Source of the DNA: a bacterium | Lineage (GTDB): Bacteria; Planctomycetota; Planctomycetia; Kolteriales; Kolteriaceae | Assembly (NCBI GenBank): GCA_019748235.1 | Contig: JAIEPU010000057.1 | Location: 1-64,000, forward strand | Length of the DNA stretch: 64,000 nt | Reading direction: 5' to 3' | Shown here: positions 732 to 28,582 of the stretch, one piece after another | How the letters are laid out: every line of letters begins with the position of its first letter | Position numbering within the stretch: the first letter of the stretch is position 1 | Translations under genes and position numbers: made by a program | The notes under the pieces: model-generated | Databases searched by the model: none | Seen by the model: only the letters and a program-made list of their open reading frames with translations | Told to the model about the DNA's origin: nothing

Positions 732-2066
732 CTATTGCGGAGGGAGCTGGAGATCTTGTTGGGCCACGCGAGAGGGGGTTGAATCGCTCGACGAATCGAC
801 CGAGGGGAGCGACGATGCCCCTGCCGGAATCGGAGGTAACGCGCGGGGTGCGTCACTTTGATTGACGAGTTCGACCGTGGGTCGCTCCTTCGGAAGGGTC
901 GGAGGGGCGGGAGGTTCCATCGCCACGACGGGAGCGGTCGATTCCGCTTCCTTTCGAATCAAAGGAACAGCTGGTGCGACGACCTCGGAAGGCGTGACGG
1001 CTATTTCGACAGAAGCATCTTCTCCATCGTCGAGTCCGCCTGGGACACCTGCGTTATCGACAAAGTTTGCCTTGTACCAAGTGATCGCCTCTTGCACCTT
1101 TTCATCAACTCGAGCGGAAAGATGATGCGTGTCGATTCGCTTGAGTTCCGGCCAAAGCTTGTACGCGAAAAAGCCGGCACTGACCGCTCCCGCCAAGGCA
1201 ACGGCACCCGCTAATGGTTCGAGCCAGCCCCACCCATTCGGACGAGGCATGGGGAGTGTTTCTTCAATTCGGCCCGACGCGGGAGCCATCTCGAAGTCAT
1301 CCATGATTCGGCTCGCCATTGCGGCCGGGCCCATGCCACCGGTCGAAAAGGCATGATGTTGTTCAAAACCCGAGTGACCGACCGATCCCATCATCGGCTT
1401 GGTGGATGCCCTCGCGGGCTCGGCCGGCGGAAGAGAAATGCTTTCACTCCATGCCCGCGTATTCGTTGCGGGACCAAAGAGCGATGCCAAGTCCCCTCCC
1501 CGTCCCATTCCTGATGTCTGAGTCGGGTAGTCGAGTGTCCCAACGCCGGAGGAGGATCCCGGATAAGTCGTCGGCTTCGACATTGGACTTTCCATCCCTG
1601 TCGGAGGCAAGCTGGCGGAGATCGGTGAAATTGGGCTCGCCGGCGGTGATGGTGCGGCAACGGGCGAGGGTGCCGGTTCAAAATCAGCCATCACCATCGA
1701 GGAGGCTTGGTTCATTGGCTCCATCATGCTCAGCGTTTCGGCTGGCGTCATCGGAGCGGCTGGTTTCGAGGCTAATTCGTGTTTGATACGCTCGAGTTGG
1801 ACCTTGGATTCGTCAGAGGGATAACGCATGAGAAGCTGGGCGTAAAAGAGGGGCGCACTGTTCTCGCGAATCACGACATGGTTCGGGTGGCAGATCAGGA
1901 TTTGCTCTCGGCAAAGGTCCGCCAGGGCACTGTTCCCACCCCGCTTCGCGTAATACATGGCCAAAGCATAGGAATCGGCGGCATCGGCCAACTGACCCTT
2001 CTGAGCCAATGCATCCCCGAGCTCGAAATACAACGATTGAAGCTCTTCTTTTGAACCGGCGGACAT
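732..2066 (-). CDS. TPR-like single-pass membrane protein, function unknown
   Basis: I do not recognise a named family. The 444-residue product begins with a helical, TPR-like stretch (roughly residues 5-100, with ELGDALAQKGQLADAADSY resembling a tetratricopeptide unit). A long Pro/Ser/Met-rich linker follows, then one transmembrane helix near residues 285-305 (GAVALAGAVSAGFFAYKLW) and a Pro/Val/acidic C-terminal region. The start at 2066 was chosen over 2144 because GGAGG lies 7 bases upstream. A scaffold that gathers partners at the inner membrane is a plausible inference only. It stands alone between smpB and a divergent secreted protein. Confidence 0.7.
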   Translation of the reverse strand: MSAGSKEELQSLYFELGDALAQKGQLADAADSYALAMYYAKRGGNSALADLCREQILICHPNHVVIRENSAPLFYAQLLMRYPSDESKVQLERIKHELASKPAAPMTPAETLSMMEPMNQASSMVMADFEPAPSPVAAPSPPASPISPISASLPPTGMESPMSKPTTYPGSSSGVGTLDYPTQTSGMGRGGDLASLFGPATNTRAWSESISLPPAEPARASTKPMMGSVGHSGFEQHHAFSTGGMGPAAMASRIMDDFEMAPASGRIEETLPMPRPNGWGWLEPLAGAVALAGAVSAGFFAYKLWPELKRIDTHHLSARVDEKVQEAITWYKANFVDNAGVPGGLDDGEDASVEIAVTPSEVVAPAVPLIRKEAESTAPVVAMEPPAPPTLPKERPTVELVNQSDAPRALPPIPAGASSLPSVDSSSDSTPSRVAQQDLQLPPQ

Positions 2067-2463
2067 TCTCGCCTCCGTGCCGAAATGGGCTGCCCATCCA
2101 TGGACCCAGACCAACGCCGACCGGCCCATAAGCAACTTTCTCAATTAGCTCAAGGGGGACTCTGGCGGTTAACTGGGTAATTTGAACGGAATTTCACGAG
2201 GGGCTCGGGGGCTGCTCGGAAATCGAGATTCATCTCATTTGGAAGATGGACACCCCGTCCGTGATCGGCCGGAATTCCGTATTAGTTGGAAGAGAAGCGG
2301 AAGTGATGTCACGCCAAAGATCGAATCCCGGTGGGACCGCGCGGTTGTTGCCGAGAATGATTGATCGCTGAGCGGATGTTCCGTCGAATCGACCAACGAT
2401 TCTTGATGGGACGCGCAAATTCCGGGTAGCATAGACTGGTTGGTCGTGTTCAGGAGACAAGAC
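2067..2463. other. Divergent intergenic region, no gene seen
   Basis: About 400 bases between the divergent starts at 2066 and 2464. It must hold promoters for both genes, but I could not identify convincing -35/-10 pairs. Short open frames here have no SD and no protein-like composition. Confidence 0.4.
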
Positions 2464-3972
2464 TTGCACACCACACGATATGCGGCTCTTCTAGGAATAC
2501 TAGCAGTCACTTCCGCCGCCAATGGGAGTGACCATGTTCTGGTGATTGGCGGCGGCCCTACCCCGGCCTCGAGTCAGCTCTCTATCGAACGAAATGTCGT
2601 CTATCTGCGACAGGTCCTCCAAAACCTCGGACGAACCGACATTCATCCAGAGGTCTTATTCGCATCCGGCCCCGATGCCGTTCCGGATGTTTGTGTCGAC
2701 CAATCCTCTTCAGTCCCCCCATCGATCAAGCTGTTGACCGATCTCATTGGTGAATCGAAAGGGATCAATCTCGGCTACCGTTGCCACGACATCGGCGACG
2801 TGAAAGGTCCGGCCGATCGCCCCACCATCTTTCAGTCCCTCGAGCGATATTCCAAGGAATTGAAAAAGGGAGATCGACTCCTCATCTACGTGACCGGTCA
2901 TGGTGGAAAGGGTAATCCCTCCACGAACGGGCTTCTTCACACTTGGAAAGACGGCGAAATGCGAGTGCGGGACTTCGTGCAGTCCCTCGATTCGTTCTCT
3001 CCCGATGTCGAAGTCGTCGTGGTGATGGTTCAGTGCTACAGCGGCACCTTCGCGAACATGATTTTCAACGGTGGAGATCCCGATAAAGGTCTGACGAATC
3101 ATCGGCGAGCTGGATTTTTCGCGACGGTCGATTCCCGTCCCGCCGCGGGGTGCACTCCCGATACGAAGGTCGAGGACTACAAGGAATACTCCACCAGCTT
3201 CTTCGCGGCCCTCACCGGTAAGTCACGAGGTGGCCAAGAGGTCAAGGCAGACGACATCAACGGCGATGGGCAGATCTCTATGGCCGAGGCGCATGCCTTT
3301 ACCGTGCTGAATTCGCCGACGATTGACATTTGCTATCGCACGTCCGATCGATTCCTTGAAAAGGAAGCCCGGCTCGATTCGAAGGATGAAAAGCTGATGC
3401 CGACGGAAGTGAACCTAGCCAAACTGCTGGAAACGGCCGATCCGATCCGCCGGCATGTAATTGAGAAATTGGCAGCCGATTTCAACATCAGCGGAGATTC
3501 TCCGATTGCGGATGCCGAGAAGATTTCCAAACAGATTTCGGAAGATCGGCGACGAACCAAGGCACTGATCACAAGCATCGACAACAACGCCAGTAGCGCG
3601 GCCAAAAAGATGAAGGAGACACTTTTTATCCGTTGGCCGTTTCTGCAGAACGCCTGGCATCCGGACACTCATTCCCTGTTGACCAAGGAATCTGAATCCG
3701 TGGTCAAATTCATCGAGGGGCAATCTGGGTTTACGGCATGGAAGCGAATGATGGATCGCGCGAAATCGCTCCGAACGCAGGACCTCGAGAAAGAGCGGAA
3801 ATGGGCCAAGCTCCAGCGGTTTCTTCTCACCGCCAAATCGGTTGTCCGAGCCGAGAATCTTCGGCGAGAGGGATCGCCTGAAGTCCTCAAGCGATATGAA
3901 GAAATATCGCAACTAGAGAACTCGCCGTTTGCCTCTCTACCAAGTTCCGTCGTTGCGCCGGTGGCAAACTAA
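2464..3972 (+). CDS. Secreted caspase/C13-like cysteine peptidase homologue with EF-hand loop
   Basis: The 502-residue product starts with a signal peptide (AALLGILAVTSAANG). A caspase-hemoglobinase fold follows: the strand LLIYVTGHGGKGN carries the candidate catalytic His (about residue 146) and VVVMVQCYSGTF carries the candidate Cys (about residue 191), the usual His-Cys order of clan CD. About 70 residues later DINGDGQISMAE (264-275) is a textbook EF-hand loop, suggesting calcium binding. The remaining 200 residues are helical and charged, with no recognised domain. The TTG start at 2464 has AGGAGA six bases upstream; in-frame codons from 2440 lack one. Substrate and true proteolytic activity are unknown. 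Confidence 0.75.
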   Translation: MHTTRYAALLGILAVTSAANGSDHVLVIGGGPTPASSQLSIERNVVYLRQVLQNLGRTDIHPEVLFASGPDAVPDVCVDQSSSVPPSIKLLTDLIGESKGINLGYRCHDIGDVKGPADRPTIFQSLERYSKELKKGDRLLIYVTGHGGKGNPSTNGLLHTWKDGEMRVRDFVQSLDSFSPDVEVVVVMVQCYSGTFANMIFNGGDPDKGLTNHRRAGFFATVDSRPAAGCTPDTKVEDYKEYSTSFFAALTGKSRGGQEVKADDINGDGQISMAEAHAFTVLNSPTIDICYRTSDRFLEKEARLDSKDEKLMPTEVNLAKLLETADPIRRHVIEKLAADFNISGDSPIADAEKISKQISEDRRRTKALITSIDNNASSAAKKMKETLFIRWPFLQNAWHPDTHSLLTKESESVVKFIEGQSGFTAWKRMMDRAKSLRTQDLEKERKWAKLQRFLLTAKSVVRAENLRREGSPEVLKRYEEISQLENSPFASLPSSVVAPVAN

Positions 3973-5618
3973 CCTTTCTTTTCCTCCCGCGGAGGAAGTC
4001 CTTCGGCGGACTCGACGGTTCGTACTTGCTCGATGGTCTTCCTTTTCTCATCGATGAGCCAAAATGCTCCTTCACGCGGTACATCGACGCGCGCCGTCAG
4101 GAATTCCGGGATTGTGACTTTCACCATCGGCGTCATCTTGAGCGGTGCGTGCGCGTAAAGCAGCCAGCGTCGTTCTGGCTTTTCTCCAAGCTTCAGAGCG
4201 AGAGCGAAGACCGGCAATTCGCTGTGAAGCGTCCATTTTCCCTTGGGATCAAGATCAGTGTCGAGGCGGAACCACCGGGGAACACCTTCAAATTGTTTGG
4301 GGAGGAGTGTTTCGTAGGGATGGGGGCGCGACGGGTTGGCGACCAGTTCTCCCTTACGCCAGAACTCGCGCAAGACAGGCGTCCGGTGGACTCGATCGAC
4401 AGCCGCGAGGATGGGGCGAAAGTATGGTTCGGTCACATCAAGCGTCTCATTATGTCCCCTGAATTCGCGCACCGTGCGAGGTCGAAGGAGCCACATCCCG
4501 TACTGCACCATGCCGACGTATCGCTCCGGACCAAACGTCTGGCCTGCTTTCGTATATTGCGTCCGCTTATCGTCCGGCTTACCCGAGTTCCCATCCCATG
4601 TCGACATCTCGAACCAGAAGGGTCGTTCCTTCGGCAATTGTTCACGCGCGACCAGCCAATTCATGGCTTCCGTTTGTGGGCTCCAGAGATTGCAGTCCGT
4701 GCTCCCGTCCCAGTTGTTCGTGTAGTACGAAACCGATGCTCCTTGCCAGATGCTACTCCATGGTCCCACATCGGTCGGAGTCGATAGGGAATGGGCCAAC
4801 CACCCTGGCCAACGTCCAACGAAACTGGGGGCAAAGGCGTTGTAACCCATGAATCGAATATTCTTCTTCCAAGTCTCAGAGACGAGTCCCTTGCGGATCC
4901 CCTCGAAGAGTGCCTCATAGCGAGGCTTCCAGCCGTCCGCAACAATTTGACGCTTTTGTTCGTCGGGAAGACCAGGCTGATACTTCTGCAGGTAGGCGGC
5001 GCATTTCTCGACCTCCGTCCAACGAAGCTTGGCATGTTCGTTGTTCGAGATGAAGAGAATGAGTGGCGGATCGGGATACCACTCTTGAATCTGTCGAAGC
5101 ATGGGGTGGGCTCCCCAGAGCATGCCGCACTGCTCCCACGCCGTGATATCCCCGAAGGGGGATACCTTTCGTTCGATGGTCCCGTCAGGATGAATGACGT
5201 TGGGATTTACCGGAATCGGTCGGTCGTAGAACTCGCTTTCATACGACAAAAGCCGCTCCCATTGCGTGCCGACAAATGCGATCGGCAGCTTGAGCCGCGC
5301 CGCCCGCTTGATCGTCGCTTCGTAGTATTCCGGTCGAAGACTCCGATCGAAGGGAACGGGCGTCGCGAACCAAGGGATGATGTAATGCCCCTGCTCCAAT
5401 AGCCGCATCTGATATTCGGGGGTATAAGCAGGAACCGTCACGCCGGTATTCCAATGCCCCGCCAACGGAAGGGGGCGACCGTCGGGGTCGTTGTCTACGC
5501 GAAGCGACTCTTCCTGGATAGCAGTGACGATCGACTCGGCTTGAAGTGACGGAGGAAAAAATGAAACAAGCAACGTCACAAAGCAAATGAGTTTGCCGAT
5601 CTTGGTCGGTTGCCGCAT
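3969..5618 (-). CDS. Secreted glycosidase-like TIM-barrel protein (hypothetical)
   Basis: The 549-residue product has a clear signal peptide (IGKLICFVTLLVSFFPPSLQA). The body is rich in Trp, Tyr and Pro with runs typical of (beta/alpha)8 glycoside hydrolases: PLILFISNNEHAKLRW, IRFMGYNAFAPSFVGRWPGW and PFWFEMSTWDGN, where Glu/Asp residues sit at strand ends. No specific GH family can be named. The C-terminal 100 residues look like a beta-sandwich (WTLHSELPVFALALKLGEKPERRWLLYAHAP). The ATG at 5618 is preferred over a GTG at 5633 because the signal peptide then has the normal length. Its 3' end overlaps the convergent caspase-like gene by four bases. Extracellular carbohydrate processing is an inference. 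Confidence 0.6.
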   Translation of the reverse strand: MRQPTKIGKLICFVTLLVSFFPPSLQAESIVTAIQEESLRVDNDPDGRPLPLAGHWNTGVTVPAYTPEYQMRLLEQGHYIIPWFATPVPFDRSLRPEYYEATIKRAARLKLPIAFVGTQWERLLSYESEFYDRPIPVNPNVIHPDGTIERKVSPFGDITAWEQCGMLWGAHPMLRQIQEWYPDPPLILFISNNEHAKLRWTEVEKCAAYLQKYQPGLPDEQKRQIVADGWKPRYEALFEGIRKGLVSETWKKNIRFMGYNAFAPSFVGRWPGWLAHSLSTPTDVGPWSSIWQGASVSYYTNNWDGSTDCNLWSPQTEAMNWLVAREQLPKERPFWFEMSTWDGNSGKPDDKRTQYTKAGQTFGPERYVGMVQYGMWLLRPRTVREFRGHNETLDVTEPYFRPILAAVDRVHRTPVLREFWRKGELVANPSRPHPYETLLPKQFEGVPRWFRLDTDLDPKGKWTLHSELPVFALALKLGEKPERRWLLYAHAPLKMTPMVKVTIPEFLTARVDVPREGAFWLIDEKRKTIEQVRTVESAEGLPPREEKKG

Positions 5619-5719
5619 GAGTCTATCCGTCACTTAGTGTCGTTTTAGTGTGAGACTTAGAAGTTGCTCGTTTCAGCGACGTGACCGATCGTCAAGCAAA
5701 GCTGGGATCTAGTGTCGGA

Positions 5720-6730
5720 TTATTTCGAATCATGTTTAGCGACTGCTACCGGAGTGACTTCGAGTTCTTCCTTCCAACTAAACTGCCCCATCACTCGAAA
5801 CTTGATCCCATTCCCGTCGCAGACGTCAACTTCAAGGATATACCGTTTCGGCAATGCGATTGGAGGAATGGGAACGATCGTCTCTACTGTCTCACCCGGT
5901 GCAATCGCTTGATGGGGCATGTCGATGTTGAATTTCACTTTTTCGTCGGTTTGCGAATCGACGATCCAGCAGAAGATTTGCATCGTTTGTATGTCGCCGG
6001 GCCACGTGACTTTGCTGGTATTCGTGACTTCTAGATGTAAATCCCAGGGCTGTCCCGCCGGGATGCTTCCGGAGAAATTCGTTGGTCGAATTCTCGCACT
6101 AAAGTAGTGGAGCGTGTCGAGGCTGTTGATCCAGCTCTTAAACTGGTCGACGGTGTGAGGTTGTTTTTGCTCGACCAGCCAGTTCTTATAGAGGTCCAGC
6201 AGATTGGGAAGGTGCGAGCCGTGCGCGAGGCCGGTGTGGCCGTACCACAGGCTGTACTCTTTGCGGGCGTCCTCAATGCTGTCACCCGCGAGCAATCGGG
6301 CGATCGCAGAGGCAAGTCCGGTTCGATCGGCGCCGCTTCGGCAATGCAGTAGGACCGGCTCTTGGGACTCATCCAGAATGTGAATTAAATGCCGAAGTTC
6401 ATCCAGCGGTGGCAGCTGGTGATTGATGAGATTGATGTCGATGACTTCTATACCGAGCTCGTTCCCGGCTCGATGCTCGTCGTCGTACCATTTATCCCCC
6501 TGCCAAGGTCCACGTAGATTGACGACCGTATGGATTTGGTACTTGTCCCTGTATTCCTTCAGTTGATCGGGGGTCGGTTGGGCCGATCGGTAAACGCGGG
6601 CCGGCAAGACCACGTGAAAATTTGGACGTGCGATCCACCACCATACGCCGATGCCTAAAAGGACCAGCACCGTCGCGAGGCGGAGAGGTGTTTTCGATCG
6701 GTCTTCGTAGTAGTACCGTTTCCCGAACAC
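5720..6730 (-). CDS. Membrane-anchored dual-specificity phosphatase with C-terminal Ig-like domain
   Basis: Cysteine phosphatase signature HCRSGADRTG, giving the CX5R loop with nucleophile Cys130 and Arg136. The upstream Asp-rich stretch 78-85 (KWYDDEH) could supply the general acid. An N-terminal membrane helix (about residues 18-33, ATVLVLLGIGVWWWIA) anchors the protein. After the catalytic domain, residues about 215-325 form a beta-rich segment with SIPAGQPWDLHLEVTNTS and APGETVETIVPI, the pattern of Ig-like domains of the NBR1 type. The substrate could be phosphoprotein or phosphoinositide; the sequence does not decide. The GTG start has only a weak SD. Confidence 0.78.
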   Translation of the reverse strand: MFGKRYYYEDRSKTPLRLATVLVLLGIGVWWWIARPNFHVVLPARVYRSAQPTPDQLKEYRDKYQIHTVVNLRGPWQGDKWYDDEHRAGNELGIEVIDINLINHQLPPLDELRHLIHILDESQEPVLLHCRSGADRTGLASAIARLLAGDSIEDARKEYSLWYGHTGLAHGSHLPNLLDLYKNWLVEQKQPHTVDQFKSWINSLDTLHYFSARIRPTNFSGSIPAGQPWDLHLEVTNTSKVTWPGDIQTMQIFCWIVDSQTDEKVKFNIDMPHQAIAPGETVETIVPIPPIALPKRYILEVDVCDGNGIKFRVMGQFSWKEELEVTPVAVAKHDSK

Positions 6731-20080: not shown

Positions 20081-20462
20081 GGTGTGAGACTCATTGCAGG
20101 CAAAGCGTTAACCGTCGGTGGCTGAATATTCCCTCGACAATACCCTGCCCATAAACATTGGCGACAGACACCCCGTCCCGAAGCGGACTGCTCCGTTAAA
20201 GTCTATCACATGACATGACAGCGTACGCAGAGAGTTTCAGACTTCTAACAGTGTCGTCGAACGAGTTATCGAACTTTTGATTCAAGTGATAATTCGAGCC
20301 ATCATGGCTTCCATTTCGTCCATACGACCGGCGCAACGGGAAGCGGTTCGCGCTGACATAACTCGAGGGGCTTTACCATCCCCAATTGATTTTCTTGAGG
20401 GCATCACTGCCCAAACGAGTTAAAATGCTGGTTCTATCCATCAAGTCGACTCTGAGGTGACA
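20081..20462. other. Divergent intergenic region, no gene seen
   Basis: About 380 bases between the acidic protein (minus strand) and the PVC cytochrome (plus strand). It presumably holds both promoters. No convincing element, RNA or small gene was seen. Confidence 0.4.
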
Positions 20463-23456
20463 ATGCGAGTTCGGTTTCCGGCAGCCTTCTTTTTTTTCTG
20501 CGGCATCCTGGGACTCGTTCCCATTCTCTCGGGCGAAGAATCGGAAAAGAAGCTCGATGACTTACTTCCCCGGATCTCGGCGAAGGAACCAGCCGAGGCG
20601 ATCAAATCGTTCGCGACACGTGACGGTTTTGTTTTGCAGTTGGCGGCGCATGAACCGGTGGTGGTTGACCCTGTAGATGCCGCCTTCGATGAGGATGGAA
20701 GACTGTTCGTCTGCGAAATGCGCGGCTACCCCTTTCCAGAAGATGAAGCGAAACCCATTGGCCGAATCCGCGTGTTATCCGATCGAGACGATAATGGCAT
20801 TTACGAAAAGAGCGACATTCTTGCCGACGATCTCTTTTGGCCAACAGGTATCGCGGTTTGGCAAGGTGGTTGCTTCGTCGTTGCCGCACCTGATCTCTGG
20901 TACTTGAAAGATACCAATGATGACGGCGTCGCCGATATTCGTGAAAAGGTATTCACGGGATTCGAACGAGCCAACGTCCAGGCACTCGCCAATAACCTGA
21001 AATGGGGATTGGACGGCTGGATCTATGGAGCCTCTTCCTCAAACGGTGGAAGCATTCGCCGTGTTGATGATCCCAAAGCTCCTGTCGTCTCCATTCGTGG
21101 ATCAGACTTTCGATTCGAACCCAAATCGCGACGATTCGAAGCGATCTCGGGAACCGCTCAATTCGGCAACTCATTCGACGATCATTACAATCGCTTCGTC
21201 TGCTCGAACAGCAATCACGCGGTACACGTCGCTTTCGATAGTCGTTACTTGCCGAATAATCGGTTCGTTTCGGTCCCTTCAGTTCTCGAAAGCATTGCCA
21301 AAGATGGAGCGGCGGCGCCTGTCTTTCGTACCAGCCAGGCTGAGCCCTGGCGGCTCGTTCGCACCGCGCGTCGGGCGGCCTCGGGACAGCCATTTGCCGA
21401 GACAGAACTTCATGCGACGGGTTTTTTTACCTCGGCGAGTGGAATCACCATCTATCGGGGAGACGCGTATCCACTCCACTATCGGGGTAATCTGTTCGTC
21501 GGCGATGTGGGGGGAAACCTGGTTCATCGAAAGAAGCTCACGCCGGATGGGCCGACGTTCGTCGCCAGCCGCCTGGAAGACGGAGTCGAGTTCCTGACCT
21601 CGACCGATAATTGGTTCCGTCCTGTCAATTTCGTCAACGCTCCCGATGGAACGCTCTACATCCTCGACATGTATCGCGAGACGATCGAGCATCCATGGTC
21701 GATTCCCGAGGATATCAAGGCCCATCTTGATTTGACGAGCGGGAAAGACCGGGGACGCATCTATCGGCTGACTCCTCCTGAATTCAAACGACGTGCGACA
21801 CCCAAGTTATCGTCCGCATCGACGCAGGAATTAGTTCAACTCCTCGGGCATACGAATGCCTGGCATCGAGAATCAGCCGCGCGACTTCTTATGGAACGGA
21901 ATGATGAGACGACGAAAGCGCACATCAGGTCTCTTCTCGCGGCGAAAAAAGATGGGCCGCGCCTCGATCAGCTCCATGCGCTAGGAATTCTTCACGGTTT
22001 GGGGCTGCTCGAGCAGCAAGACATTCTTTTGGGACTCGCTTCTGCCGACCCGTCCGTTCGAGAACAATCCGTTCGATATGCGGAAGGAATGATGTCGGAT
22101 GATCGGATGGCCCATGCCGTGGAGCGACTTGCGGAGGACAAGGATTTTCGAGTTCGCTGGCAAGTGGCACTCTCGCTCGGCTTCTCGGATTCGCCCCGTC
22201 GCGCGGACGATCTCCTCAAACTCGCGACGCATGATCCGAAAAGCGCGTGGATGCGAACGGCGGTTCTCCTCTCCTCCAGCAATGTCGAGCCTTCCATGCT
22301 GAAATCGCTTCTCAAAGAGAAGGATGACTCGCTCGCCCCTTTGGGCGAAGAGCTTTTGCGCATCGTTGCCGTCAAAGGAAACGCTAGCGACATCACATCG
22401 GCGGCATCAAGTCTGTCGGATTCTCCCTGGAGCAAATCGCGAAGGATCGCGCTCGCCGCGGCGTTTGCCGACGGACTCAGGCAATCGCAGTCCACCGGTA
22501 AACTTTGGCAGACAATCAATACAACCTCGGTCGGTGAGTCGCTGCGATCGCTCCTCAAGGAAGCGAAGACGATCGCAACCAATCACGAAGCCTCGGCGAC
22601 GGATCGTACGGAAGCTCTTCGCGCACTTCAATTGAGCCAGGACGATTTGGCAGATGAACTCGCCAAACTTCTGAATTCTCACGAGCCGCGAGAGGTACAA
22701 CTGGAATCGCTTCATATTCTTGATCGATCCTCTCGCGCGGATGTCGGTGAGCGAGTCGTCAAGGCGTGGAGCTCCGCAACACCGGGCCTGCGAGCTGAAA
22801 TGATCGAAGTACTACTTGCCCGACCTGATCGCCATGCCGCGTTGTGGGGGGCGGTCGAAAAAGGAGATATCCTTCCAGGGCAGCTTTCGAGCGCGGCTCG
22901 CCAGCGGCTTTTGAATTCCGTCGCGACGCGGGGCAATGAAAAAGCGAAGACGCTTCTCACCGCGGGAACGGCAAATAGGCAAGGAATTATTCAAGCTTAC
23001 CGAAAGGGGCTTGATGTGAAGGGGGATGACGTCGCGGGACGAAAGGTCTTCGAGCGGGAATGCGCGACCTGTCATCGTTTACGCGAAAAAGGGTATGACG
23101 TCGGACCGAATCTCGCCACCGTGACGAATCGAACGCCAGTGCAACTCGTCGATCATATCCTCGATCCTAATCTTGAAATCCTACCGACCTTCCTCGAGTA
23201 CACTGTCGTTCTCAATGACGGTCGAACGGCAAACGGACTTATCTCATCTGAAACTGCCACGAGCATCACGCTTAAAAGAGCAGAGGGTGTGGTCCAAACT
23301 ATTCCGCGCGACGAAATTGATGAGATCAAGTCGACGGGAAAATCCCTAATGCCGGAAGGTCTCGAACAGAAAATCAGCAAAGAGGAAATGGCGAATCTCA
23401 TCGCGTACCTGTTGAAGGCGTCAGACACGAGTCAAATTACAGGAACGCGCAAATGA
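20463..23456 (+). CDS. PVC-type membrane-bound dehydrogenase-domain cytochrome with HEAT repeats
   Basis: A 997-residue secreted protein with the architecture typical of Planctomycetes and Verrucomicrobia. It has a signal peptide (AAFFFFCGILGLVPILSG), then a beta-propeller sugar-dehydrogenase-like domain (about 40-430, with FVCEMRGYPFP and WGLDGWIYGASSSNGG). HEAT-like helical repeats cover about 440-830. A C-terminal heme c domain has CATCH (Cys867 to His871) and a following GPNLATV region. It is likely periplasmic and involved in oxidative carbohydrate breakdown, but no substrate is established for the family. The ATG at 20463 is preferred to the GTG at 20457 on SD spacing. Confidence 0.9.
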   Translation: MRVRFPAAFFFFCGILGLVPILSGEESEKKLDDLLPRISAKEPAEAIKSFATRDGFVLQLAAHEPVVVDPVDAAFDEDGRLFVCEMRGYPFPEDEAKPIGRIRVLSDRDDNGIYEKSDILADDLFWPTGIAVWQGGCFVVAAPDLWYLKDTNDDGVADIREKVFTGFERANVQALANNLKWGLDGWIYGASSSNGGSIRRVDDPKAPVVSIRGSDFRFEPKSRRFEAISGTAQFGNSFDDHYNRFVCSNSNHAVHVAFDSRYLPNNRFVSVPSVLESIAKDGAAAPVFRTSQAEPWRLVRTARRAASGQPFAETELHATGFFTSASGITIYRGDAYPLHYRGNLFVGDVGGNLVHRKKLTPDGPTFVASRLEDGVEFLTSTDNWFRPVNFVNAPDGTLYILDMYRETIEHPWSIPEDIKAHLDLTSGKDRGRIYRLTPPEFKRRATPKLSSASTQELVQLLGHTNAWHRESAARLLMERNDETTKAHIRSLLAAKKDGPRLDQLHALGILHGLGLLEQQDILLGLASADPSVREQSVRYAEGMMSDDRMAHAVERLAEDKDFRVRWQVALSLGFSDSPRRADDLLKLATHDPKSAWMRTAVLLSSSNVEPSMLKSLLKEKDDSLAPLGEELLRIVAVKGNASDITSAASSLSDSPWSKSRRIALAAAFADGLRQSQSTGKLWQTINTTSVGESLRSLLKEAKTIATNHEASATDRTEALRALQLSQDDLADELAKLLNSHEPREVQLESLHILDRSSRADVGERVVKAWSSATPGLRAEMIEVLLARPDRHAALWGAVEKGDILPGQLSSAARQRLLNSVATRGNEKAKTLLTAGTANRQGIIQAYRKGLDVKGDDVAGRKVFERECATCHRLREKGYDVGPNLATVTNRTPVQLVDHILDPNLEILPTFLEYTVVLNDGRTANGLISSETATSITLKRAEGVVQTIPRDEIDEIKSTGKSLMPEGLEQKISKEEMANLIAYLLKASDTSQITGTRK

Positions 23457-24775: not shown

Positions 24776-26149
24776 TTAGAAGTTCGCAGGGAGCGTGGTG
24801 TAACGGTTCAGACGACCAAAGTAGTAGTTGAACAGAACTTGAAGTTCCCCATTGAAGCTTCGGTTATTGTTATTCGTCACGGGGACGACGCCCGCGAGAG
24901 TGAGCGTTGATCGTTGGCCGAATACGAAGTGCGAGCCTGCCGTCAGGTTGACGATGCTGTAATTCGCATTGGTATCGGTCAAGATCGTCGTGACATTGCC
25001 GTTGTTGATCGAGCCGTTGTTGACGGTATCCGCGTTGCCGAGCGCCTGGTTGTAGTGAACTTCGAAAATGGGCGCAATGCCTGTGATGAACGATCCTGGA
25101 TTCTTGTAAATCCAGTAACCGACGTTCCAGTCGAGGAAGAGGACGCTCGTATCGCTGTAATCACCGGCTTTGGCCAATGAGTTCGTTGAATTGTTAAGCA
25201 TGTAGACCGATCGGCCAGTGGCGTCCACATCGTACTGACCATAAATCTGCGTAAAGAAGCGGCCGGGCATGTAGACCAATCCCAGGTAGGGTGCCAGATG
25301 AGTTCCCTGGTTCTTCACTCGAAGGATATCCGATCCGTTTTGAGTTAAAACTTGATCGTTCGCGGTCGGGGTGGTGATCGAAAGACCTCCACCGAAAGCG
25401 ACCGTGTTCGATGAGTAGATCAATCCCTTCAGAAAGACCGTCACGTTGCCGAGCTGCGTGTTCGTCGAGCCGATGTTCGTGACGTCTTGTGTGGAATCGA
25501 GCGTTCCGGCAAAGGGAACTCGAACCTCAACGGACGTGTTCCCATTGAAGAATGTCTTCTCGAACCCTGGCACATACCGATTGACATTGGTGCCATTGGC
25601 CGTCAGCGGCACGCCGTTGAAATATTGATAGCCGAAGTAAACGCGGTCTTGTGGGAGGACACTCGTGTTTTCCGCGAGCTTGAGTCGCCCCACACCACCG
25701 CCCGTTCCAGGTGACGTGTTGATCGGCGTCACCCGCGTCGGGAAGAAGCCACCATCCGTGTACCCCTGAACGACGGTCGTTCCCCCCGCGGCTCCGAAGA
25801 AATCGCCAACCATATTCGGCGCAGCAAAGTTAGACGCAGAGGCGACGTCATACTGTCCAGCCAGCGCCTGGTCGAATGCCGAGTTCGTCTCGGGAGCGTT
25901 GTTGGCTGCTTGAGGGCTGGGAGCATTGGGAGACTGAGATGCATCAGCACTCTCCGCTGCTTTCGGTTGAATCTCGGTACTAGCCGACGGCGGAGAAGTC
26001 GACTCTTCAATAATCGCCGGATACGACGGCGGGCATGTATCGCAGCTCTTCTTCTTGCCGAATCCAGCGGCAAATGAGTCGCTTCCAATGACAATGCTCA
26101 GTGCGGCTGTCAGTGTGGCCAATCGGCGAGAAATAGGGAGCTGATACAC
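24776..26149 (-). CDS. Putative outer-membrane beta-barrel protein, copy B of a tandem pair
   Basis: 457 residues from a GTG start with AAGGA eight bases upstream. Signal peptide RRLATLTAALSIVIGSDSFAAG, then a mature N-terminus FGKKKSCDTCPPSYP, a Pro/Ser/Ala-rich linker, and a long beta-rich region of alternating polar and hydrophobic residues ending in an aromatic C-terminal Phe (LNRYTTLPANF), as outer-membrane barrels do. It is a clear paralogue of the product of 26373-27800, with near-identical blocks such as YFGYQYF, GLSITTPTAND and HFVFGQRSTLTLAGV. No specific family recognised; transport or adhesion are possibilities. Confidence 0.75.
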   Translation of the reverse strand: MYQLPISRRLATLTAALSIVIGSDSFAAGFGKKKSCDTCPPSYPAIIEESTSPPSASTEIQPKAAESADASQSPNAPSPQAANNAPETNSAFDQALAGQYDVASASNFAAPNMVGDFFGAAGGTTVVQGYTDGGFFPTRVTPINTSPGTGGGVGRLKLAENTSVLPQDRVYFGYQYFNGVPLTANGTNVNRYVPGFEKTFFNGNTSVEVRVPFAGTLDSTQDVTNIGSTNTQLGNVTVFLKGLIYSSNTVAFGGGLSITTPTANDQVLTQNGSDILRVKNQGTHLAPYLGLVYMPGRFFTQIYGQYDVDATGRSVYMLNNSTNSLAKAGDYSDTSVLFLDWNVGYWIYKNPGSFITGIAPIFEVHYNQALGNADTVNNGSINNGNVTTILTDTNANYSIVNLTAGSHFVFGQRSTLTLAGVVPVTNNNNRSFNGELQVLFNYYFGRLNRYTTLPANF

Positions 26150-26311
26150 GGCATGTATCCTTTGCGTGGACAAAATGACGCTTTCCTGCTTTCTGGATCG
26201 GAGCGTTCCGCTTATTAACTCGTTCAATTCCTTGAAGAATTCGTCGACTCAGCGTTAAAAGAAAACGGTTTTACGGCTCACGACGGGAGTGGGTATGACA
26301 AGAAATGAACA

Positions 26312-26342
26312 ATCTCCACGCACCGAAGGGAAACGTGGAGAT
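26312..26342 (-). terminator. Intrinsic terminator after barrel protein copy A
   Basis: Perfect 9-bp stem ATCTCCACG / CGTGGAGAT with a 13-base loop, followed on the minus strand by a T-rich run (TTGTTCATTTCTTG). It sits 30 bases past the stop of the gene at 26373. Confidence 0.7.
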
Positions 26343-26372
26343 CGCGTTCATCAACTCATGGGTCAGGTGATT

Positions 26373-27800
26373 TTAGAAGTTGACCGGAAGCGTGCTGTAT
26401 CGATTAAGCCGACCAAAGTAGTAGTTGAACAGAACTTGGAACTCGCCGTTGAATCCGCGGTTGCTGGCGTTGGTTGCCGGAAGCACGCCCGCCAATGTCA
26501 ACGTTGATCGCTGTCCAAAGACAAAATGAGTTCCTGCGGTCAGATTCACGATGCTGTAATTCGGATTGTTGTCAGTGACGACGAGGCCAGTTCCATTCAC
26601 ATTTCCACCGGAGAACCCATTCGTGACGGTGTCCGCATTACCAAGTGCTTGGTTGTAGTGGACTTCGAAGATTGGCGCGATGCCGGTCACGAAGGTCGAC
26701 GGATTTCGGTAGATCCAGTAACCAAGATTCCAATCGAGGAACAAAACGCTCGTATCGTTATAGTTTCCGGCTGATTGAAGAGCGCCAGTTTGTGAATTCG
26801 CCATGTACACCGGTCGGCCGGTCGCATCGACATCGTACTGAGCATACATCTGAACGAAGAATCGGTTCGGCATCCAGATCACGCCAAGATAAGGAGCCAA
26901 GTGCGTTCCCTGATTTTTGATCCGAAGTATTTCCGAACCATTCTGAGTAACAACGGCGTCGTTTGCCGTCGGCGTCGTGATGCTTAACCCGCCCCCCATT
27001 GCCATGGTGTCTGACTGGTACAACAATCCCTTGAGGAACAAAGTCACGTTACCTAGCTGAGTGTTCGTCGCACCGATCTGATTCAAGTCCTGTGTCGAGT
27101 CCAGCGTGCCGGCAAATGGTACGCGAACCTCCACCGATGTCGTGCCGTTGAAGAACGTCTTTTCGAAGCCCGGAACGTAACGATTCACGTTCGTTCCGTT
27201 GCCGATCGGAACGCCTTGAAAGTATTGGTAACCGAAGTAAGCACGATCCTGCGGCAGAATGCTTGTGTTTTCGGCGAGCTTGACTCGACCGACACCGTTG
27301 CCCGTTCCAGGAGAAATTCCGAGCGTCTGATTCTGCGTGGTCGTTTGATAGATCGTCACCGGTCGGACTTGACCGTCAATATTGAGGAAAACAGTCCGGC
27401 TGGTGGTGATGGATTCGGTCAGCGTCATGGCACTCGCGGCACCGAAGAAATCACCGACCATGTTCGGAGCGCTAAAATTCGAAGCCGACGCGACGTCGTA
27501 CTGCCCCGTCAGGCTTTGATCGAGCGCTGAATCAGTGGTCGGAGCGTTATTGGGGGCCGGCGCCTGAGGTGAATTCGCTTCGGGAGCGTTTGGTTGAGAT
27601 TCGCTCGGCGCAATGGGCTGAGCCGTTGATAGAGGCGGTGTGCTCGGGACCTCTTCGATAACGGTCGGATAGCCCGGCGGGCAGACGTCACAATTCCGTT
27701 TGGCTTTGCCAAATCCAGCAGCCGCAGCTTCGGGTGAAACCACGAGAGTTGTCGCTAAAGCAAGGTGCAAAACAATCTGAGACAAGCGTCGAGGCGTCAC
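26373..27800 (-). CDS. Putative outer-membrane beta-barrel protein, copy A of a tandem pair
   Basis: 475 residues from a GTG at 27800, supported by AAGGAG seven bases upstream; the frame is open to 27959 but no SD is seen there. Signal peptide ending AAAAG, mature N-terminus FGKAKRNCDVCPPGYP with the CxxCPP motif shared with copy B, a low-complexity linker, then DQSLTGQYDVASASNF and a beta-rich barrel ending LNRYSTLPVNF. It differs from copy B mainly by an insertion near residue 160 (SRTVFLNIDGQVRPVTIYQ). The pair looks like an old tandem duplication including a downstream hairpin. Confidence 0.75.
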   Translation of the reverse strand: MTPRRLSQIVLHLALATTLVVSPEAAAAGFGKAKRNCDVCPPGYPTVIEEVPSTPPLSTAQPIAPSESQPNAPEANSPQAPAPNNAPTTDSALDQSLTGQYDVASASNFSAPNMVGDFFGAASAMTLTESITTSRTVFLNIDGQVRPVTIYQTTTQNQTLGISPGTGNGVGRVKLAENTSILPQDRAYFGYQYFQGVPIGNGTNVNRYVPGFEKTFFNGTTSVEVRVPFAGTLDSTQDLNQIGATNTQLGNVTLFLKGLLYQSDTMAMGGGLSITTPTANDAVVTQNGSEILRIKNQGTHLAPYLGVIWMPNRFFVQMYAQYDVDATGRPVYMANSQTGALQSAGNYNDTSVLFLDWNLGYWIYRNPSTFVTGIAPIFEVHYNQALGNADTVTNGFSGGNVNGTGLVVTDNNPNYSIVNLTAGTHFVFGQRSTLTLAGVLPATNASNRGFNGEFQVLFNYYFGRLNRYSTLPVNF

Positions 27801-28582
27801 GGCTTGCTCCTTCCATGGAAAACGAAGCGAACAGCTATGTCGCCCCGCGAAGCCTAAAAATCCATCACACGGCTGAGCCATCAAGCGGATGGCGCACTGC
27901 CCTGGTTGCCACCCCGTCGGGCGGTCTCGTAATTGATCGGAGGAAGCTCCTTGTCGCATCGCGTAAATTGCAAGCTAAAAACAAAGCCGAACCAACTTTG
28001 GCCGAAAGATGGGAAAACTTTGCTGATCATTCTGAAAAGGAGGGCGTTAACAGGGTCAACCGCAACAAAACGATTTTAGGACTGGGGAATCCTCAATTTC
28101 GAAAACAGCCCTGAATCCTGTGCATAGGTGTATTTTGTTTACGTCATGTCCCTCCCGCGGAGTCTTCTCCCTCCAAAACGAGCGGCAAGAGGAGTATCAT
28201 TAGTTTCAGAAGGAACTTAGGTCGAGAGAAGGCTCTGAGCGACCCTCCATTGGATCAGCATGACCTGATCCCCCTTGACCGACGCCCGTCGAGTCGTACT
28301 TAAATGGTTTCTATAAGGCGGGATACGCCCCGATTTGTTCTCCGGGTGTTCCCCCAGTAGCTGACTGGCCGCGGGTTTTACCTAACCTCTACGGACCGCA
28401 AGATCCTGGTTGAAAGGATCGCTGAAAGGCTGTTGAAGAACAACCTCTCGTTGACTGCCGGCGATGTTCTGCGAAACTAGCCAATGGTAGCAGTGATGTT
28501 GAGCAGCCAGGGTTCGGAGACTCCAGCAGGATCGCTGGAATAAGAGTGCCGCGGCCTCAGCCGATGGGAAGGATGTCGAACA
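27801..28582. other. Large noncoding region upstream of rpmF-plsX
   Basis: About 780 bases, the longest gap in the window, between the divergent barrel gene and rpmF. Open frames are present (for example one crossing 27734-28114) but have no SD or protein-like composition. From about 28300 to the rpmF start the sequence is G+C-rich with several short complementary segments (GGCG/CGCC near 28317-28330), compatible with a structured leader. No known RNA family was recognised. Confidence 0.4.

Follow-up and report, generated by a model that had tools for sequence, protein, structure and literature searches.

The 64,000-nucleotide stretch of DNA analyzed here (the window) carries on its forward strand, at 2464..3972, a gene that by its translation and its homologs encodes a 502-residue homolog of the clan CD peptidases with an export-type N-terminus. 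The reading frame opens with TTG and ends with a stop codon at 3970-3972, and a Shine-Dalgarno-like AGGAG (2452..2456, +) can be read 7 nt upstream of the start. The ORF list also allows a longer frame from a second in-frame TTG at 2440; we favor the start at 2464 because of its ribosome-site spacing and the signal-like N-terminus that it produces. On both sides its neighbors are ORFs of the opposite strand that lack a Pfam match at E ≤ 0.001: 732-2144 (-) lies upstream, and 3969-5633 (-), downstream, runs over the peptidase stop codon with a four-base overlap. The downstream ORF, convergent with the peptidase gene, encodes 554 aa and has by eye a signal-like N-terminus of its own. Sigma-70-like promoter sites between 2100 and 4100 numbered 0, as against 1.0 expected in shuffles, a result that is uninformative.

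Residues 1-21 of the peptidase homolog (2464..2526, +) resemble a signal peptide by eye, and the AlphaFold model has a helix at residues 4-15. A hydrophobic N-terminal 12-mer above the threshold used is present in 58 of the 72 homologs with a testable N-terminus, the other 14 failing this simple hydrophobicity test. An earlier note on this DNA had called the protein secreted; judged by sequence, the export-type N-terminus is there, and the peptidase homolog is probably exported.

The two residues expected to form the catalytic dyad can be read directly from the translation: His146 lies in the motif TGHGGKG (codon 2899..2901, +) and Cys191 in the motif VQCYSG (codon 3034..3036, +), so that the description of both as intact holds. 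Both are kept in 81/81 sequences, i.e. the window protein and 80 homologs, and they align with the His and Cys motifs of metacaspase-4 and of GSU0716. The homologs were collected with two search patterns, [VI]MVQCYSG and AAGCT, and the conservation of C191 and of C230 is therefore partly ascertained, since both residues sit inside the patterns; protein and profile genome searches that used no pattern recover the same family. The His and Cys motifs occur jointly in 29 of 20,000 shuffles of the peptidase protein. Planctomycete caspase homologs in general keep the dyad in 64% of cases, according to PMC3501461, as against 81/81 here. That dyad loss is common among such homologs (PMC3501461) is what would speak for a dead, non-enzymatic scaffold or binding protein, a reading that we consider exceedingly improbable given the complete retention of H146 and C191, though one search pattern held the Cys.

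The predicted structure places these residues in a caspase-type fold. In the AlphaFold model, built with 70 sequences (pLDDT 93.4, pTM 0.91), H146 is near the end of the strand 138-148 and C191 follows the strand 183-189, i.e. the His-then-Cys order after two core strands that characterizes clan CD, with both residues at the strand ends where the fold should have them. The best Foldseek match is legumain (family C13; E 7.9e-7), with TM-scores of 0.32 by query and 0.54 by target length and an rmsd of 6.8; scores this modest are expected if about one third of the model is an insertion, which they do not prove. VIA-align likewise ranks legumain as the closest fold (Z 20.3 over 228 residues at 3.6 Å, with ~14% identity), together with Arabidopsis metacaspases 4 and 9 (family C14B; Z ~20), a GPI transamidase subunit (~18) and the bacterial metacaspase GSU0716 (17.9). 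With fold matches at Z ~20 and the dyad kept in 81/81, the protein is, on the predicted model, the caspase/C13-like clan CD member that had been proposed. The closest folds include legumains, Viola peptide ligases and the GPI transamidase (Z 17.7-20.3), and the protein could accordingly be imagined as a transpeptidase or maturation protease for surface proteins that, in the manner of plant asparaginyl ligases or the GPI transamidase subunit, cuts back or joins particular exported proteins instead of degrading proteins at large; a single gene with the dyad kept in 81/81 would suit such an enzyme. A fold cannot reveal ligase activity, however, and the neighborhoods described below hold no family-wide neighbor that would point to a substrate or anchor system, so that we regard this alternative as unlikely.

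Family assignment by sequence is less clear-cut. Pfam Peptidase_C13 matches 30/70 members at E ≤ 0.01 (best 5.1e-7), and the window protein scores 18 bits, below the PF01650 gathering score of 22.8; together with the ~14% structural identity this separates it from legumain. Legumain is an exported enzyme, and is not known to have an EF loop or a comparable helical insertion. PF00656 (C14) does not appear in the match list of the window protein at E ≤ 10, where the HMMER filters drop most matches above 0.1, or in that of the 70 members at E ≤ 0.01. The likeness to metacaspases is evident in profile alignments that pair both dyad motifs (metacaspase-4, profile E 8.9e-4; GSU0716, phmmer E 1.4e-5 and profile E 0.028). 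Metacaspases carry an Asp two residues before the catalytic Cys, which confers their preference for Arg/Lys, whereas residue 189 in this family is Val in 77 and Ala in 4 of the 81 sequences; specificity is not transferable from metacaspases, since the acidic residue of their DSC motif is replaced. The NCBIfam model NF047832 (caspase_w_EACC1) matches residues 110-265 weakly (E 1.9e-4; 21 bits against a cut-off of 140) and 6/70 members at E ≤ 0.01. The enzyme may work in the manner of the legumain/metacaspase type while fitting neither family by Pfam model.

The substrate side of the predicted active site is also well conserved. The AAGCT motif (residues 227-231; 3142..3156, +), with A228, C230 and T231 in 81/81 sequences, A227 in 69/70 and G229 in 70/70, probably forms with its invariant Cys230 a wall of the substrate pocket. 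Glu42 is present in 79/79 rows with a residue at that position, Glu241 in 80/81 with one Asp, and Gln190, like Cys230, in 81/81; our guess from these four residues is that the pocket is acidic. Asp288 is invariant in the 81-sequence alignment as well.

Past the dyad lies a 12-residue EF-hand calcium loop, DINGDGQISMAE, at residues 264-275 (3253..3288, +). Its first residue, D264, is 73 residues past C191, exactly where the earlier note had put a canonical calcium loop. The sequence follows the DxDxDG scheme with Glu at position 12 (D264, N266, D268, G269, E275), and the ligand positions are kept throughout the family: D264 and E275 are present in 81/81, position 266 is D/N and position 268 is D/N/S in 81/81, and Gly269 and Ser272 are each found in 76/81, while the non-ligand positions 267, 270 and 274 vary freely across 70 aligned sequences. 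This conservation is independent of the homolog search, since the loop played no part in either search pattern. A Cys-motif script parsed 77/80 homologs, leaving 3 unparsed; among the 77 the EF pattern begins exactly 73 residues from the Cys in 72 and 74 in one, and the other 4 keep the register and have lost the Gly of position 6, a loss seen in 5/81 in the larger alignment. In the window protein and 12 full-length homologs gathered without patterns, the His, the Cys and the EF ligands are likewise in register. The EF core pattern appears in 64/20,000 shuffles of the peptidase protein, and is thus by itself unlikely by chance and not decisive; homology is a much stronger support than shuffle statistics for the motifs and the loop alike.

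The model qualifies the claim of a perfect EF-hand loop, which stands for the loop sequence and does not extend to a helix-loop-helix unit. Residues 264-272 are coil and continue into an exit helix at 273-283, and the loop lies outside any strand, so that the concern that it might be buried in one falls away; the preceding helix, 242-251, stops 12 residues short of the loop, and because no helix stands directly ahead of it we describe the site as a half EF-hand. The binding of Ca2+ would follow from ligand conservation and predicted fold. Dyad and putative Ca2+ ligands are conserved together, in 81/81 sequences and in both deep clades of the tree described below, which is what the pattern of a needed metal site would be, and the calcium site thus looks indispensable to the enzyme.

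An ion bound in this way could regulate or could simply be built in. The calcium-gated enzyme proposed in the earlier note would use the half EF-hand as a low-affinity switch, the protease turning on as external or periplasmic Ca2+ rises; this would agree with the canonical ligands in 81/81 and with the expectation that a lone unpaired loop, as modeled, binds more weakly than paired EF-hands. Yet invariance without loss in 81 sequences suits a structural ion equally, and extracytoplasmic Ca2+ is normally abundant, which would leave a switch little dynamic range. We favor a structural ion filled on export over gating, and consider gating rather unlikely.

Calcium in a caspase fold has precedents, as evidenced by EF loops in PF00656 proteins, by archaeal homologs and by type III metacaspases. 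PMC6426788 describes calcium dependence in metacaspases, a conserved Asp where p10 begins that type III metacaspases crucially need to bind calcium, and an EF-hand motif in 7 archaeal caspase homologs. Planctomycete PF00656 caspase homologs have the GHG/DxC motifs of C14, and an EF-type loop only in a minority: of 59 loci given to the motif script, 45 were parsed, some with a doubtful Cys motif, and 14 were not, and 6 of the 45 have the loop, 63-69 residues past the Cys. The figure of 6/45 is rough, because degenerate loops (e.g. L119, L122, L123, L126) went uncounted and because two of the unparsed loci, L125 and L131, had previously shown an EF pattern within their domain; earlier passes gave an EF loop in 3/12, 3/13 and 7/28, one of these 7 lying outside the p10 region. 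The interpretation in the earlier note is only partly borne out: gating has no support here and the EF loop as an element is not unique, though its constancy across this family is noteworthy. The known calcium sites of metacaspases are not known to include EF loops. What sets the family apart is the invariant loop together with the export-type N-terminus and the helical insertion. Among the 6 positive loci is L132 (G000:C281:17802-18356), a second caspase homolog (PF00656) of the window's own genome, whose EF-type loop, DDNEDGKVSADE, lies 66 residues past the Cys.

The C-terminal region had been described as an uncharacterized tail of 200 residues; it is probably not a tail at all. Models and structural alignments place a helical insertion at residues 302-471 (3367..3876, +), with helices 347-390 and 423-469 forming a long hairpin, followed by a C-terminal helix at residues 472-485 (3877..3918, +) that probably closes the caspase-fold core. 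Structural alignments reach model residues 489-502 in 50/50 listed rows, with ~190-235 residues aligned, and because these ranges extend to the C-terminus we infer that residues ~302-471 are inserted and that the chain returns to the core thereafter. Folded alone, the insertion yields confident helices with the long hairpin (pLDDT 95.5); its matches are generic long-helix ones, the best Foldseek E being 0.22 and the best Z 9.1, below the ~13 that the tool gives for long helices, and no relative could be named. The absence of a named relative does not make the insertion a new fold.

The family is an old, chromosomal one of the Planctomycetota and Verrucomicrobiota. Searched with the protein, 59 related whole genomes gave matches in 15, own genome included; searched with a profile, at most 5 first-look candidates being scored per genome, 294 genomes of the phylum gave 10 at E ≤ 1e-10, again with the own genome included and with two of the 10 weak and partial; since so few genomes match in the protein and profile searches, the gene is patchily distributed. 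Named records contain 131 relatives, of which the best 80 were kept, 53 from Planctomycetota and 27 from Verrucomicrobiota by their titles, among them one from Blastopirellula marina DSM 3645 (L052), and with these best 80 of 131 examined the family may extend further. No relatives were found on plasmids or on viral contigs, the latter giving 9 pattern matches of which none is a relative. A maximum-likelihood tree of 81 rows divides into two supported halves (100/99 each) with both phyla in each, and either phylum label needs two changes on the tree, where shuffling gives a mean of 22.7. The pattern points to an old duplication or an old exchange followed by resident inheritance. The window protein sits on a long branch (1.85), and where exactly it belongs in the tree is unsure. 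The two deep clades (L026-L105) differ in their motifs, one tending to TGHG/QCYSG and the other to T[AS]HG/QCHAG. We recognized no paper on this family among those listed by searches of the openly licensed PMC literature.

Conservation of the gene neighborhoods is largely limited to individual clades and reveals neither a function nor a partner. Up to 5 flanking ORFs per side were clustered for 76/80 homolog loci and the window, L026, L029, L065 and L091 being left aside because the ORF caller had missed the family gene. The largest shared neighbor sets comprise 14 loci each; among the 16 largest, the sets with a mostly fixed position each keep to one clade, bar one stray locus in one set, and the clade-spanning sets have scattered positions. 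Any neighbor in the window is common to at most 3 other loci, and an operon or functional partner was rejected for want of a family-wide neighbor across the 76 loci and the window. In one verrucomicrobial clade of 17 loci, a common ORF stands at +1 in 14/17 (e.g. L080:9461-10027) and another at +2 in 14/17 (e.g. L103:10145-11539), the latter DnaA-like by eye.

A defense role was likewise rejected: in a PADLOC scan that covered the peptidase protein itself, the protein has no match at E ≤ 1, no relative was found on plasmids, and the viral pattern matches are unrelated. A programmed cell death or anti-phage effector, of the kind represented by cytoplasmic bacterial caspases, would be compatible with the caspase-type fold and with the weak caspase_w_EACC1 match noted above (E 1.9e-4, 21 versus 140 bits). 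This reading seems to us very improbable in view of the export-type N-terminus, the lack of a PADLOC match, of a family-wide neighbor and of plasmid or viral relatives in the sets searched, and a tree pattern that looks like that of an old resident gene.

Taken as a whole, the protein is probably an exported clan CD cysteine endopeptidase with a structural Ca2+ site, nearest in fold to legumain (C13) and the metacaspases. Clan CD enzymes are under tight activation controls, i.e. dimerization, pro-domains, pH and calcium. H146 and C191 would act as the catalytic dyad, and a single Ca2+ would be ligated by the half EF-hand through D264, N266, D268, the carbonyl of residue 270, S272 (possibly via water) and E275. 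The ion would tie the stretch that follows the fifth core strand to the next helix and so hold the side of the substrate pocket in shape. Since the cytoplasm contains little Ca2+ and its surroundings plenty, the enzyme would most likely mature and become active only after export, thereafter staying loaded with Ca2+. The hairpin of helices, inserted ahead of the last core helix, would be a likely arm for binding substrates or partners. The computation shows the ORF, its homology, the conservation of the ligands, the predicted fold and the lack of a family-wide neighbor; Ca2+ binding, protease activity, export, the role coupled to export and that of the hairpin are inferred. As a bolder and more tentative proposal, an old, exported legumain-like protease or ligase family of the Planctomycetes-Verrucomicrobia might have acquired the p10-side Ca2+ site as a compartment check, the enzyme folding and gaining activity only outside the cytoplasm, with the hairpin selecting the exported proteins to be processed. 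This sizeable bacterial family, its EF-type loop as constant as its catalytic residues, offers a clean and testable example of calcium built permanently into a legumain-like enzyme, and points to an uncharacterized extracytoplasmic processing activity in Planctomycetes and Verrucomicrobia.

Elsewhere in the window, the only other EF-core pattern in six-frame ORFs of at least 100 aa is DTNDDGVADIRE at 20910 (+), in the ORF 20457-23456, which encodes a large protein whose N-terminus looks signal-like and which has a haem-type CxxCH motif, both judged by eye. At 5720-6730 (-) there is a tyrosine phosphatase-family protein (PF13350, E 5.1e-11) whose N-terminus resembles a membrane anchor by eye, and at 24776-27959 (-) two adjoining proteins of 483 and 528 aa look alike by eye, as if they had arisen by tandem duplication.
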